This document shows positions 1,531-7,505 of a stretch of DNA of 64,000 nt, one piece after another. This DNA is from SAR324 cluster bacterium. Lineage in GTDB: Bacteria > SAR324 > NAC60-12. The DNA is taken from contig JADFZZ010000019.1 of assembly GCA_015232315.1 (NCBI GenBank), positions 1 through 64,000 on the forward strand, read 5' to 3'. The notes under the pieces are model-generated. The model had not been told where the DNA came from. It saw nothing but the letters and a program-made list of their open reading frames with translations, and did no database searches. Within the stretch, counting starts at the first letter, position 1; each line of letters opens with the position of its first letter. Made by a program: the position numbers and the translations under genes.

Positions 1531-2244
1531 TCAGTGGATTCCCCATTTTTGATGAAGTTCATTTTCCAGAACAGGCGCATATCGGGGATCAAGCAGATAA
1601 CACAGAATCTCGATCCCGTAACTGTTTTCTGATTCCCTCACTGTTTGAATCTGGGGCGCCTTATTGATCATCGTCCAGGGAACATTCAAAATATATTGCC
1701 GGATTTCGCCGATCAGTTGTTCCAGGGAACCCCGTTTGGCAATTTCCAGAGAAAACCTTAAAGTACCAGACTGAAGGGGCGGTGATTTTTGTAGCCATTG
1801 ACGGGATAGTGTTCCATAGGGAATTTTAACCAGTGTCCCGGTATCGGTTTCCAGCCAGAGGGCCGTGTAACCCAGTTTTCTGATAAGTCCCTGATAGCGA
1901 CCTGCGGTAATATGCTCCTGAACCTTGAACGAGCCTTCCATCCGGATAAACAATCCCATGCCCAGATCCCGGATGATGGGCCACCCGGAGCCAATGGCAA
2001 GGAACAACAAAACGCCCAGCAGAATTTCTGAATATAAACGGGGTAAATCAAAAATCGCGTGACTGCTCCAGATCAGCAGGATTCCCCAGAAAATTGCGGC
2101 CATGACAGGAAATCCCTGCTCCAGCCATGCGTACTGAGTTTTGCCGGAAACCATCCATTGCAGTAAGCGATGAACGGCACGCAAACCGGCCCACAGCAAG
2201 AGACACAGCAGTATAAACTTCAATATTCCAAACTCAAGAATCAT
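1531..2244 (-). CDS. Small MscS-like mechanosensitive channel protein
   Basis: The 237-residue protein has three or four hydrophobic segments in its first 100 residues. A region typical of the MscS pore helix and beta domain follows: Gly-rich LAIGSG, then RDLGMGLFIR, a KVQEHI segment in place of the usual VGD-I, a GLIRKLGY strand, TDTGT, and VKIPYGTLSR in place of the usual V-IPN. A short C-terminal alpha/beta part follows. The family opens under membrane tension to release solutes on osmotic down-shock. The start codon overlaps the stop of the upstream cotransporter-ATPase gene (ATGA at 2241-2244), so the two are very likely translated together. The domain order suggests a compact MscS relative with no long N-terminal extension. 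Confidence 0.8.
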   Translation of the reverse strand: MILEFGILKFILLCLLLWAGLRAVHRLLQWMVSGKTQYAWLEQGFPVMAAIFWGILLIWSSHAIFDLPRLYSEILLGVLLFLAIGSGWPIIRDLGMGLFIRMEGSFKVQEHITAGRYQGLIRKLGYTALWLETDTGTLVKIPYGTLSRQWLQKSPPLQSGTLRFSLEIAKRGSLEQLIGEIRQYILNVPWTMINKAPQIQTVRESENSYGIEILCYLLDPRYAPVLENELHQKWGIH

Positions 2245-5200
2245 AACATCTCCTTATCACGAAAACAGTGTGTCAGCCAGGAGGTGATGAAGGGGTTCAG
2301 CGTCCATACACCATGTTCCGGCTCCACAATCAGTCCGGCACGTTTCATGGAATGAATTTCATGCTGAATTTTGGCGTCATTCCATCGCATGATCCGGCAC
2401 AAACGTTCCGTCGTCAGTGCTTTGTGCAAGATCCATTGAAGGAGCAAAATCTGACGGTCTGTTGTTAAATTGGACAGGATCTCCGCATTTCGGGGGTGTG
2501 GATCCATGATGTTCAAGGTACTTTCCTGAACGGACTCGGTATGAGTCAACCACGAGCGCAAGGAATCACCGACATTTCCATGGGCATAATCAAAATGCCG
2601 ACTGAAGAGTCGCGCGATTTTGAGCGGTGACAGGGATTCCTCGGAAGTTCCCTTGAGTTGAAACTTAATGCCGCTGGCCCGATGCCTGAGCATGATCAGA
2701 TCCTTGAGTTCTTCTGCGTTGAAGGGTGTGCATTCGATGAGTTCCAGCAAATAATCCCGAATGTTCCAGAATTTTGAAATAAATGACAACGCATGTTGAT
2801 TGATATTCATGAGGATCAGATATCGATTTCCCCATTTTTCCATAATCATGCTGATTTCCCTTAAAACAGCCATGCCTTCCGGACTGCGTTCCCACCAGAG
2901 TTCAATGTCATGAAACACCAGTACGCAATTGGGGGGAAGATGTTCCATCATCTCATATCCCTGACTTTGGGTTGCCAGTGAAATGCGGTTCCAGAATTCT
3001 GACACATTGCAACTGCCTCCGGAGGGCGGAATGATCTGATAAACCGGAACACGTTTGCAGTATTGTTCCAGAATCATGTGCGTCAGCCCGGTTTTTCCGG
3101 AATAGCGATTGCCGCTGATCATCACCACCCCTCCGGTTCCACCGCGAAAACGTTGAATGGCCTTTTCCGCCTGACGTAATTCGGCTTTTCTTCCCACCCA
3201 GAAGTTTTTGTTGGGAATGTGTTCACCCAGAAACAATTGTTTATAGTGAAAGGGCAGTGCATTCAGAACATCATGTCCGGGCATCATGGTATCCAGAATG
3301 TTCCGCACCGTATGCAGTTCGCCATGAATATGGTTCATTTGCTGCCAACGTTGCGCTTTCAGCAAACTTTCATTTTTATGGTAAATCAAACGTACCAGCG
3401 TTGATTCAAAGGCTTCGTAGAGTTTTTCTCGTTTCTCACCCACATTGGACAACATGCGCTTGCCTTCCTGTTGTCGGATATAACGTTTGAGATCACGGGA
3501 AGACTGAATGATGAGGAATGGATTGAGTTTGTCCGAGGTCAGTTTGAGCTGTTTTTCAAACAATTCATCGAGTTCATGCTGGATGAGGGTGATTTGTTCC
3601 TTTTCACGTAAAATGCGGGTTTTCTCCTGCTCCAGCCAGAGTTCCAGCGTTTTGTCACTGTCAGCATCGCTTTGCAATTCCCTGGAACCTCTGTTGAACA
3701 GTATCAGCCTGCGGGTGTCATGGATGTTCTGATTGGCATTTTCCAGCAGGGGCACCGCGTGTTCGAGATAGGCTTCCAGTGGTTCTATCAAGTCTGAATA
3801 AATAAAATACTCGACCAGTTCCCGGAGATAAATGGTAAGCACCTCCATCTTGCTGAACTGCCCCTCCTGAAAGGATTGTAACGAAACATTGCTGATGGTG
3901 TCCATGGATTCCGGCAGAGTTTCCAGGGCCGGTCTCAGTTCGTTGATCATGTTTTCCACAAGTTCATGGGTATCAATCGAAATTTTTCCATCATAATGAG
4001 CCACATTGACGCCGGAAGTTTCAGCCACCGGATTCAGGGTTTTTCTGGATAAATCCTCCACAAACACATCAATTTTATCAATAAGCTGGTTTTCGATGCT
4101 CAGCAGCAGATCCTGTTCAAATTTCTGAATAATGATGGTCATGCGCCGTTGAAAAGAAACCAGAAACAAATCCATTTTCAGCACTTCCAGCAACAGTGTC
4201 TGATTGTGTTTCCAGGTTGCGGGATAGTCATCTATTCCGGCGATCAGGTTTTCTTCATGAGTGCGCTTTTTCATCTGTTTCAACCGGCCCGAACTTCCGG
4301 GGATCCAGGCTTCCTGAATCAGTGATTGAATGGCGTTACCACAGGATTGTAGCAATTGAGTCTGATAATGTTCAAACATACTGTCATTGATTTGCTGAAG
4401 TGCTTCCTGGTGTTTCTCAAGCCGGGTTTCATGACGGGTGATCAGTTCTCCATTCAAGGCATTGCCTGTTCCCTGCTTTTCCAGGTGTCCCAGGGTGTCC
4501 CGGATGGTATGGCAGAGATTTTGAAGTTCCCTGACAAGTTTGTAATGCTGAAGACCCACAGCCTGCAATCCCGGCCACAGCGTCGAACCGCGTTTCTGTT
4601 GAAAATAATAATGAATCAAGCCTTTCAGGGACAAGTTGGCTTGTGGCGGAACATGGCGCCAGCGTATCTTTTGGCGAGTCACCCATTTAAGCGTTTTCAG
4701 TCTGAAATCATCATGCCGTTGGGGTTCAAAATTTTCTTCAGGATAAAGCACCTGTAGTGACTCCGGATAATCCTGAATCAGTTTGCCGATGGTTCCGGTC
4801 CACCAGGTCAAACCATTATCCCAGAATTCCATTTGATGTTTCAGGGCTTCGTCTTCAAATTCAGAAACGTTGCGCAATAATTGAAACAGAATATCGCCCT
4901 GTATCTTGGAAACAATTTTTTTATTTCGTAGATCATCGCCTTTTCCAATCTGTTTGGAAAAGCGGTTCAGTCCCGCATAACCGACTTCCGTCAGCGCATT
5001 GATGAGTTCCTGATTTTTTTTACGTAGAGGCAATACATAAAATTCCATATATTGTTTCAGTGCTTCTTCAATCTGCGCAATCAACCGGTTGATATACTGC
5101 GACAACTGCGGGTCAGGCGGCAATTCAATTTTTTCATGTTCCGTAAACTGACTCAAGGACAACGCCAAAGCCTGTTCCTGCCCGGTCACTCCGGAGGTTT

Positions 5201-7370
5201 GATGCCATTCAATGCCCGTAGCGACTTCATTGAAAAAGGAGGAGGCATGAATCAACAGGGTAGGCCCCAGCGAAGACAGCAGATTGTTGGTGGACTTAAT
5301 CATCTGACCTGCGTTGGTCTCATTCATCAACGGCATTCCCAGAATGGTCAGATCCGCTGAGCCTGATTGTTCTGACAAAATTTGGGGAAATGGTTTTTGT
5401 TCAATGGCGTTGTTGATGATGTTGATGGTGGCATCCAGTCGTGCGTCATCCAGCAATTTTTTCATGTTTTTGTAAATGGTATCCACCATGGCGCTGGTTT
5501 CGGTCATGATCAGGAAACGAACTGTCGTATCACGCCATTCAGGGGACAATAACAAAAATTTAACCAGCATCAGGCTCAGATTTCCATTATTTCCCGCGCC
5601 ACGCCACCAGACATCAATCTGTTTACGCTCGCCAAAACCACGTTCAGAATTATATTCAAGAAACAACAGATTATAATCCAGTTGTGTCAGGGTCTGGATC
5701 ATGTGTCCGAATTTTTCAGGGTTCCGGGTTTCGCCCCCCCAGCCCATCAGAATGGAATTAGGGTCAATGCCTGAAAATCCATACGTTTGAGCGATATTTT
5801 CAATGCCCTGGTAAATATCCTTGCATTCCTGTTTGCGGATGAACACGCCCGGTATGGATTCATCTTCAGAGACCACAATCTGTTTGGAGCGGGGAAACAG
5901 AATTTTGGCGGTCGGATTTTCAACCAGATCAAAATCAGACAGCATGCCCATCTGTCCGATGGTCCATTTTCCGAATTCCATCAGATAGGGCCTGGCCTGA
6001 GAACCGCCACTGAACAACAGAAGGTTTGGCCTCCAGTTCTGACTTTGTGAATCGCTCTTACTCAACTTGAACAAGCCCTGTCGCACCAGCGCTCCCCAGA
6101 CTCCGGCCCAGATATCACCGACGCTGGTCATTTCCTTGCGTTTGAGATAGGAAAAAACTCCGGTCAGGATCACAGTCCCCCCAACCATTGCGACCAGATC
6201 CAGTTCCAGCATGATGATCGCACATGAAAGCGCGCCGATGATACTCAGAATTCTGGGGGTTCGGAACGATGGTCTGAAATCAGGACTGGCCCAGCTTTCA
6301 ATGGCGCAGGTCAGATTGAGAAAACCATAGGTGGTGAGAAAAAAAATTGAAACAATCCGGGCAATGACATCCAGTTCTCCAATGAGAATTCCTGCTTCAG
6401 CAATCAGGAATGTCAGCATCAGCGCGTTGCGGGGTTCATTGTCTTTTCCATGTCCCTTGCCAAATATCGCGGGAGTGATTTTATCAATGGATGTCGCCTG
6501 CAAAATACGGGGGGCGCCAAGGATACTTCCAATCGCGGAAGACACGGTGGCTGACCAGATTCCGGCAATAACCAGCGGAGGATACAGCGAAGCTTCCAAT
6601 AGGATTTTCGGATTATTGACCAGGGCCTCAGGCATGATTCTGAACCCCAGAAAAATGGCAATTCCCATATAAATCACCAATCCCAGCGCAATGGCGATGA
6701 TTGTGCCCAGCGGGATGGATTTCTTGGGATCTTCGAGGTCGCCTGACATGGAAACACCCGCTTCAAAACCTGTCACTGCCGGGAAAAAGATACCAAATAA
6801 AATCATCATGCCCGGCGCATTGTCCATGGGCATCAAATGCGGTGACTCCGGAATTTGGGGCGGGGTTCCCAAAAATACGGACAACAGTGACAGGGCGATG
6901 GTCACCATAATGAAATACTGGCTTTTTACCGCTAGGGAGGTGCTGATAAACGTCAGGGTGGTGACCGCCAGCAACGAGACAGTTCCCGCGATTCGAATGT
7001 TATTGATGGTTTGCTCCCAGCCCCAGAATCCCAGAAAACTTTCGGAAAAACCAATCAGATACAGACTCACGCTGAAAGACAGTCCCACGAACAACGCCAG
7101 TCCCAGTGTTCCGCCAATCGGGAGACCCAAACTTCTGGAAATCATGAAATAGGAACCGCCACCTTCTACTTTTTTATCCGTAGCGATCGTTGAAATGCTC
7201 AAACCTGTCGTCACTGAAATCACATGCGCGATCACAATGATTCCGACAGTCATATAAATCCCGGCATTGCCTGTGATCCAGGGCAGGCGCATGTACATGA
7301 TCACACCGAGAATTGTCAGGATCGAAGGAGTGAACACGCCTCCGAAGGTACCAAATTTTTTTGAGGACAT
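2241..7370 (-). CDS. SLC12-like cation-chloride cotransporter fused to a C-terminal P-loop ATPase
   Basis: Residues about 1-430 form a 12-helix APC/SLC12 permease. The start resembles NKCC/KCC transporters, with FGTFGGVFTPSILTILGVI, then GGGSYFMISRSLG and GFEAGVSMSGDLEDPKKSIP. Residues about 430-750 match the cytosolic SLC12 C-domain. A long, mostly helical and coiled-coil-like region follows to about residue 1370. The last 350 residues look like an AAA/STAND or Orc1-type ATPase: WVGRKAEL, a Walker A GNRYSGKTG near 1420, a Walker B-like VLVFHDIE near 1488, an LILMNIN sensor-like strand, and a C-terminal winged-helix-like segment. Cotransporters of this family move K or Na with Cl. The ATPase suggests regulation or signalling and is an inference. 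A TTG start at 7409 would add 13 residues. I chose the ATG at 7370 because it directly precedes the conserved start. The downstream MscS gene overlaps by 4 bases. Confidence 0.85.
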   Translation of the reverse strand: MSSKKFGTFGGVFTPSILTILGVIMYMRLPWITGNAGIYMTVGIIVIAHVISVTTGLSISTIATDKKVEGGGSYFMISRSLGLPIGGTLGLALFVGLSFSVSLYLIGFSESFLGFWGWEQTINNIRIAGTVSLLAVTTLTFISTSLAVKSQYFIMVTIALSLLSVFLGTPPQIPESPHLMPMDNAPGMMILFGIFFPAVTGFEAGVSMSGDLEDPKKSIPLGTIIAIALGLVIYMGIAIFLGFRIMPEALVNNPKILLEASLYPPLVIAGIWSATVSSAIGSILGAPRILQATSIDKITPAIFGKGHGKDNEPRNALMLTFLIAEAGILIGELDVIARIVSIFFLTTYGFLNLTCAIESWASPDFRPSFRTPRILSIIGALSCAIIMLELDLVAMVGGTVILTGVFSYLKRKEMTSVGDIWAGVWGALVRQGLFKLSKSDSQSQNWRPNLLLFSGGSQARPYLMEFGKWTIGQMGMLSDFDLVENPTAKILFPRSKQIVVSEDESIPGVFIRKQECKDIYQGIENIAQTYGFSGIDPNSILMGWGGETRNPEKFGHMIQTLTQLDYNLLFLEYNSERGFGERKQIDVWWRGAGNNGNLSLMLVKFLLLSPEWRDTTVRFLIMTETSAMVDTIYKNMKKLLDDARLDATINIINNAIEQKPFPQILSEQSGSADLTILGMPLMNETNAGQMIKSTNNLLSSLGPTLLIHASSFFNEVATGIEWHQTSGVTGQEQALALSLSQFTEHEKIELPPDPQLSQYINRLIAQIEEALKQYMEFYVLPLRKKNQELINALTEVGYAGLNRFSKQIGKGDDLRNKKIVSKIQGDILFQLLRNVSEFEDEALKHQMEFWDNGLTWWTGTIGKLIQDYPESLQVLYPEENFEPQRHDDFRLKTLKWVTRQKIRWRHVPPQANLSLKGLIHYYFQQKRGSTLWPGLQAVGLQHYKLVRELQNLCHTIRDTLGHLEKQGTGNALNGELITRHETRLEKHQEALQQINDSMFEHYQTQLLQSCGNAIQSLIQEAWIPGSSGRLKQMKKRTHEENLIAGIDDYPATWKHNQTLLLEVLKMDLFLVSFQRRMTIIIQKFEQDLLLSIENQLIDKIDVFVEDLSRKTLNPVAETSGVNVAHYDGKISIDTHELVENMINELRPALETLPESMDTISNVSLQSFQEGQFSKMEVLTIYLRELVEYFIYSDLIEPLEAYLEHAVPLLENANQNIHDTRRLILFNRGSRELQSDADSDKTLELWLEQEKTRILREKEQITLIQHELDELFEKQLKLTSDKLNPFLIIQSSRDLKRYIRQQEGKRMLSNVGEKREKLYEAFESTLVRLIYHKNESLLKAQRWQQMNHIHGELHTVRNILDTMMPGHDVLNALPFHYKQLFLGEHIPNKNFWVGRKAELRQAEKAIQRFRGGTGGVVMISGNRYSGKTGLTHMILEQYCKRVPVYQIIPPSGGSCNVSEFWNRISLATQSQGYEMMEHLPPNCVLVFHDIELWWERSPEGMAVLREISMIMEKWGNRYLILMNINQHALSFISKFWNIRDYLLELIECTPFNAEELKDLIMLRHRASGIKFQLKGTSEESLSPLKIARLFSRHFDYAHGNVGDSLRSWLTHTESVQESTLNIMDPHPRNAEILSNLTTDRQILLLQWILHKALTTERLCRIMRWNDAKIQHEIHSMKRAGLIVEPEHGVWTLNPFITSWLTHCFRDKEML

Positions 7371-7505
7371 ACGGTTACAGGTGTTGAAATTTTTATAAAA
7401 GACTGACAACAGATAAACAGCGACTCTCAGGATGTGTGTGTATCATGGTGCCTTTGAGAGTTGCAATGAGTAACTTTTTACCAACAGAACAATCAAGGAG
7501 AGTTT

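Follow-up and report, generated by a model that had tools for sequence, protein, structure and literature searches.

How turgor is sensed by bacteria and relayed to ion uptake has long been an open question; MscS acts as an emergency valve, Trk systems and cation-chloride cotransporters (CCCs) are carriers, and we know of no direct molecular link between the two. In the TrkAH/KtrAB systems, a cytosolic nucleotide-binding protein controls an osmotically important ion transporter; however, the RCK subunits involved have a Rossmann fold rather than an AAA+ fold, and no MscS subunit is present. Here, we describe a gene from a SAR324 cluster bacterium, located on a stretch of 64,000 nucleotides of contig JADFZZ010000019.1 (hereafter, the window), that fuses a CCC to a long helical region and a STAND/AAA+-type ATPase and is directly followed by an MscS-family gene. 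The CCC part resembles the SLC12 proteins NKCC1 and KCC1 and the archaeal MaCCC in that its transmembrane and cytosolic domains align along their length and the residues of the Na+, K+, and Cl− sites are kept, but the helical-ATPase tail and the MscS partner set the window protein apart; to our knowledge, neither is present on any known CCC. Thus, while the components are known, their assembly is undescribed in the literature searched: no description of a CCC–MscS–ATPase, MscS–STAND, or MscS–antiporter–ATPase combination was found, in agreement with the original prediction made from the letters of this DNA, although subscription journals and preprints lay largely outside the coverage of the search and absence is no proof. 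The locus encodes in the genome the missing kind of link: a single protein joins a carrier to a putative nucleotide switch, and a relative of a tension channel is encoded directly behind it. This arrangement spans many phyla and involves two or more kinds of carrier, suggesting a so far undescribed class of molecular devices that control the salt content and turgor of the cell. Genomic evidence gives strong support to a coupling between carrier, ATPase, and MscS; the mechanism proposed below is a hypothesis built on this firm genomic observation. The features of the locus are as follows.

2241–7370, minus strand: whole CCC–helical-ATPase gene, with an ATG start at 7370 (a TTG farther upstream, at 7409, could also serve)
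6135–7361, minus strand: APC-type CCC transmembrane domain, residues 17–425 (PF00324, E 2e-41; NKCC-type Na+, K+, and Cl− site residues)
5205–6092, minus strand: CCC cytosolic C-terminal domain, about residues 440–735 (PF03522, TIGR00930, and alignment to the KCC1 and NKCC1 structures)
3300–5150, minus strand: long-helix region, about residues 754–1370, with helices of up to 76 residues (AlphaFold model; hhalign homology to exchanger-fused and free-standing forms)
2535–3257, minus strand: AAA+/STAND-type ATPase domain, about residues 1385–1625 (PF13191, conservation, and Foldseek matches to Orc2/Cdc6, RuvB, and CED-4)
2244–2492, minus strand: winged-helix-like C-terminal domain, about residues 1640–1722 (order of helices and strands in the AlphaFold model; match to Orc/Cdc6/RuvB, which have winged-helix ends)
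1531–2244, minus strand: MscS-family partner of 237 amino acids (PF00924, AlphaFold, and Foldseek; position downstream of CCC-fused genes)

The CCC–ATPase fusion and its MscS-family neighbor

Carrier and ATPase are one protein. The minus-strand open reading frame (ORF) at 2241–7409 extends over 1,722 codons without interruption, and its best start, the ATG at 7370, gives a protein of 1,709 amino acids; the starts of full-length homologues (P0004–P0006) coincide with this ATG or lie at most four residues upstream of it. The MscS-family gene overlaps the stop of the CCC–ATPase gene by four bases (ATGA), as had been predicted. A search with the C-terminal 969 residues identified full-length fusions (1,704–1,724 codons) in three more related genomes belonging to different genera or families, and in every case an overlapping MscS-like gene comes next. 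A genome contig search with a single protein as the query gave no match, and the wider set of loci came from a profile scan of 84,980 species genomes, which yielded 80 loci; together with the window and the locus in genome G004, these make 82 rows, or 81 distinct loci (L042 and L010 lie on one contig). Since motifs of the CCC clade were used to find these loci, the sample is biased to this clade, and most sequences are from metagenome-assembled genomes.

CCC and ATPase were found in one ORF at 66 distinct loci in at least eight phyla (including Bacteroidota, Myxococcota, Thermodesulfobacteriota, Fidelibacterota, Gemmatimonadota, Chlorobiota, and Rhodothermota among the records, as well as SAR324 for the window), and an MscS gene was located directly downstream, mostly with a four-base overlap, at 55 of the 59 CCC-fused loci with enough downstream sequence. 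The domain order and MscS neighbor of the window thus recur in other genomes, and both the fusion and its coupling to MscS are conserved well beyond chance. A chance fusion, sequencing error, or assembly join (the original prediction named a frameshift or join as a possible undoing) could draw on one locus, L098, where a split CCC and an ATPase–MscS fusion resemble frameshifts beside the near-identical L093. However, the 66 fusions are distinct, of equal length, and from independent assemblies, among them those of strains of Desulfoluna limicola and Paraliomyxa miuraensis, and no frameshift or join was found in the window; this explanation is already refuted by conservation, and we give it a negligible probability. 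We also considered L098:6414–12115 as a natural ATPase–MscS ("Rosetta stone") fusion and rejected it, as the near-identical ATPase of L093 has the normal gene order; the L098 arrangement probably represents frameshift errors and was left out of the evidence.

The carrier part contains both the APC-type transmembrane domain and the SLC12 cytosolic domain that identify a CCC, confirming the predicted SLC12-like permease. PF00324 matched residues 25–425 (E 2e-41) and PF03522 (SLC12) matched residues 595–675 above its cut-off (E 5e-7), while the TIGR00930 match reached residue 677 with E 1.4e-116, though below the cut-off of that model; the closest solved structures are KCC1 and NKCC1 (E ~1e-76). 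Among the fused CCCs, L31, Y117, P210, T213, A287, S290, S291, and Y361 are invariant where aligned (59–64 sequences). By their match to NKCC1, the Leu in transmembrane helix (TM) 1 and the Ala, Ser, and Ser in TM8 represent the Na+ site, and the Tyr in TM3 and the Pro and Thr in TM6 the K+ site; the Tyr in TM10 is also invariant. The Na+ site is invariant across Na+-dependent CCCs and missing from KCC1 (PMC7035313), which lacks the Ala-Ser-Ser of TM8 in our alignment with the fused CCCs, and the use of K+ is plausibly defined by the TM3 Tyr, which is a His in NCC (PMC7035313). The TM1 Trp and Asn are Leu and Thr, respectively, in the fused CCCs; these two positions contribute main-chain oxygens (PMC7035313). 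Because the Na+ site residues are kept, the fused CCC is predicted to be a Na+-driven K+/Cl− importer, which narrows the "importer or exporter" of the original prediction to import. Unfused CCCs of related genomes (720–860 amino acids) show 29–38% identity to the fused CCCs and have neither an ATPase nor an MscS gene adjacent, while identity among the fused CCCs within SAR324 is 60–64%; judged by sequence, the fused CCC clade is a subfamily of its own. The window's genome also encodes a second, unfused CCC of 729 amino acids (L142:7537–9726; G000:C14), which is located beside cytochrome-oxidase-like genes and lacks MscS and ATPase neighbors.

The helical-ATPase family and its transporter partners

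The predicted order of a helical region, a P-loop ATPase, and a winged-helix-like end was recovered by several lines of evidence. AAA_16 (PF13191) matched residues 1404–1453 with E 1.9e-5 (25.7 bits, below the cut-off of 32.6), and the homologue at L173 reached 26.7 bits, just short of 27.1 among the curated AAA_16/nSTAND1 cut-offs. Walker A (GNRYSGKT, residues 1433–1440) fits the family consensus GxxxSGK[TS], with the Lys present in 59 of 60 relatives. The candidate Walker B (VLVFHD, residues 1496–1501) is followed by IELWW; its second acid (D1501) is Asp in 49/60 and Asn in 10/60 sequences, the first acid position holds D, E, N, or H among relatives (His in the window protein), and the WW is found in nearly all relatives. 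An RH motif (1575–1576 in the window protein) is retained in 58/60. The AlphaFold model of residues 754–1722, built with 60 sequences (mean pLDDT 86.4, pTM 0.57), presents helices as long as 76 residues ahead of an AAA+ core and the winged-helix-like end, with a pLDDT mostly above 90 in the AAA+/winged-helix portion. Foldseek matched this model to archaeal Orc2/Cdc6, RuvB, and CED-4 (E from 3.5e-8, probability 1.00), with TM-scores that are modest due to the long query; none of the best 50 matches in the PDB was to the long-helix region alone, all being AAA+ or related ATPases. The protein shares with STAND/AAA+ ATPases (i.e., AAA_16, nSTAND1, Orc/Cdc6, and CED-4/Apaf-1) an "F.GR..EL" lead-in, Walker A, a putative Walker B with WW, and the winged-helix-like end, but differs in that an N-terminal long-helix domain replaces the C-terminal repeats, that it falls below the Pfam cut-offs, and that it is tethered to a membrane transporter. 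No family in Pfam or NCBIfam covers the helical-ATPase unit (~950 amino acids), which forms a distinct family without a curated model.

This helical-STAND ATPase family is found almost only beside MscS genes. Among genomes sampled from two phyla, 74 of 237 in Myxococcota and 64 of 345 in Bacteroidota encoded relatives, and of 40 loci examined from this sample, an MscS gene was immediately adjacent in 38, a Na+/H+ exchanger was fused in front in 18 (with a weak match at L267), and TrkH and TrkA were adjacent in 10. The family thus includes CCC-fused, Na+/H+ exchanger-fused (N-terminal PF00999, E 1e-18 to 3e-24), and free-standing forms, as well as forms located behind TrkA/TrkH. The exchanger fusions L180:7796–12004, L178:6503–10714, and L264:3525–8387, among others, have an MscS-like gene after them and often TrkH/TrkA before them. 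The window's genome itself contains three ATPase–MscS pairs: the CCC-fused pair of the window, an MgtE-linked pair (L013:4132–9731; G000:C43) in which MgtE, a canonical MscS, and a free-standing ATPase lie in a row, and a TrkAH-linked pair (L147:2638–11636; G000:C2) with the order TrkA–TrkH–response regulator–ATPase–MscS, whose ATPase is a distant relative. Three of the six PF00924 genes in this genome adjoin the three ATPase-family genes. The Trk arrangement was also found in two other genomes (L145 and L146, the latter without a recognized TrkH); the MscS partners in L147, L145, and L146 have 358, 729, and 953 amino acids, respectively. The recurrence of the ATPase with Na+/H+ exchangers, TrkAH, and MgtE fits a role in the control of ions and turgor.

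Comparison of the helical regions by hhalign gave 99.7% over 541 columns for the CCC form versus the exchanger form and 99.1% over 425 columns for the CCC form versus the free-standing form; since each value comes from one pairwise profile comparison and scores can be raised by long helices, collinearity is the stronger point for homology. For the Trk form, hhalign did not directly link the helical region to that of the CCC form (9.7%) and gave 93.4% with the exchanger form. A quick, midpoint-rooted tree built from the ATPase domain placed the CCC-fused forms in one group (SH-aLRT 100) and the exchanger-fused and free-standing forms on the opposite side. The CCC-fused group also holds five rows without a CCC (L074, L076, L116, L091, and L098), of which the first four are read as probable cases of later loss. 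The original prediction had regarded homologues with the ATPase as a separate, unrelated gene as evidence against it; the ATPase does occur as a gene by itself, yet these genes are homologous and mostly still have MscS next to them, which extends the idea rather than undoing it.

These partners bear on two other explanations for the family. As a scaffold or assembly chaperone, the helical-ATPase could cluster transporters and MscS rings or insert them into the membrane without switching their activity, as its very long helices, AAA+ fold, and several transporter clients might suggest; however, a chaperone has no need for a lasting fusion to one client, and the fusion to members of two transporter families speaks for lasting regulation at a fixed stoichiometry, making this explanation unlikely. 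STAND/AAA_16-like ATPases are also frequent in anti-phage systems, and membrane-permeabilizing effectors are known, so that the ATPase could conceivably sense an invader and kill or arrest the cell by an ion leak through MscS or the carrier. We consider such an immune or conflict device very improbable, as PADLOC matched none of its anti-phage models (0 families), the ion-site residues of the carrier are strongly conserved, the genes that share its operons encode housekeeping ion transporters (TrkA/TrkH, MgtE, and exchangers), and no variable sensor repeats are present.

The MscS-family partner

The protein encoded downstream of the fusion matched PF00924 above the cut-off (E 3.8e-6, 27.4 bits versus 20.2), and its AlphaFold model (pLDDT 91.4) presents three transmembrane helices, a beta-domain, and a cytosolic alpha/beta domain, as in the MscS superfamily (MscS, YnaI, YbiO, and MscK); Foldseek matched the model to YbiO, MscS, and YnaI (E ~2e-12). 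It differs from this superfamily in its near-constant ATPase neighbor, in aromatic residues of the pore helix, and in lacking the Gly/Ala-patterned TM3A with hinge G113 of the E. coli type. In the CCC-class partners (n = 64), the equivalents of E. coli MscS G104 and G108 are mostly large hydrophobic residues, G113 is replaced, and Trp occupies position 112 in 40 and Phe position 113 in 26 sequences. The Gly/Ala fraction of the pore helix is 0.50 in E. coli MscS and 0.35 in partners of free-standing ATPases, as compared to 0.21 for the exchanger class and 0.18 for the CCC class (Mann-Whitney versus the free-standing class: p 5e-10 for the CCC class and p 3e-5 for the exchanger class, values that are only a guide as the sequences are related). 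The pore helix is relaxed only in the transporter-fused classes, while the MscS partners of free-standing ATPases retain the canonical glycine-rich pore helix. The MscS partners of carrier-fused ATPases therefore appear to have drifted from an ordinary pore, and the loss of the glycine pattern suggests that the partner of these forms may be a tension sensor instead of a wide pore. For the tension-gated pore of the original prediction, the MscS fold and the gene coupling were confirmed, but in the CCC form the pore may not be openable.

The pore helix also bears on the idea that the ATPase mainly gates the MscS-like pore as a nucleotide-controlled vent, with the carrier refilling K+ and Cl− afterwards, so that the two would be opposite arms of one unit. 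MscS, not the carrier, is the most constant partner of the ATPase, and the glycine-rich pore helix kept beside free-standing ATPases fits this idea better for the free-standing class. However, the loss of the Gly104 and Gly108 equivalents and the gain of Trp and Phe (e.g., Trp112 in 40/64) in the CCC form, together with the loss of much of the Gly/Ala pattern in the exchanger form, argue against an ordinary tension-opened pore in these classes. We regard a vent as somewhat improbable, and as the next most likely explanation after a switch that acts on the carrier.

A proposed tension-dependent switch of ion import

We propose, with a probability of about 50%, that the CCC–ATPase and its MscS-family partner form a three-part module for the control of ions and turgor. 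The CCC part would import K+ and Cl− on the Na+ gradient and raise cell solute, while the MscS-like partner would form a ring in the membrane and report tension, possibly with poor or no conductance in the CCC branch. The long helices may link the carrier and ATPase to the cytosolic cage of the MscS partner, with the ATPase acting as a nucleotide switch whose ATP state would license import at low tension; as tension rises, the MscS partner would reset the switch and import would stop. In related versions, this switch may instead act on Na+/H+ exchangers or on K+ uptake through Trk. A wider proposal, tentative and rather doubtful at present, is that helical-STAND ATPases generally serve as adaptors that connect ion carriers (i.e., CCC, Na+/H+ exchangers, and Trk) to tension sensors of the MscS type, letting membrane tension and ATP directly switch ion import, with the MscS of fused forms converted to a pure mechanosensor.

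Several observations weigh against the proposed module. No MscS gene was found nearby at four CCC–ATPase loci (L054, L064, L068, and L072), and some Flavobacteriales ATPases stand alone with neither CCC nor MscS, suggesting that MscS is not strictly required or is encoded elsewhere. In addition, the Walker A Lys is lost in two free-standing SAR324 ATPases, suggesting that ATP hydrolysis may be dispensable in some family members; Walker A reads GESGSGRTT (Lys lost) in L013 and GERGSGHTT in L015. The direction of control could also run either from tension to the carrier or from the nucleotide to the channel. Of the self-contained cell-volume device originally predicted, the fusion and the MscS coupling stand, and the links to further ion transporters fit it, while control of the carrier by the ATPase and the setting of cell volume are hypotheses. 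The family offers testable proteins for mechanically controlled ion transport, including those of D. limicola and P. miuraensis, as well as a prokaryotic relative of NKCC1 with what may be a built-in regulator.

Other family members present further arrangements. The 1,465-amino-acid ATPase at L250:7062–11459, behind TrkA–TrkH, has an N-terminal region without any Pfam match, and the N-terminal region of L173:8729–13363 looks membrane-embedded; these two are perhaps further transporter fusions. Genes for CorA Mg2+ transporters are located near or beside family members at L011:5809–6894, L010:15586–16665, L176:8639–9793, and L245:5287–6369. Three Flavobacteriales ATPases of the CCC clade (L074:8960–12331, L076:6579–9941, and L116:2446–5814), which have apparently lost both CCC and MscS, share a conserved neighborhood with panB-like and dnaK genes downstream and a tRNA-modification-like gene upstream.

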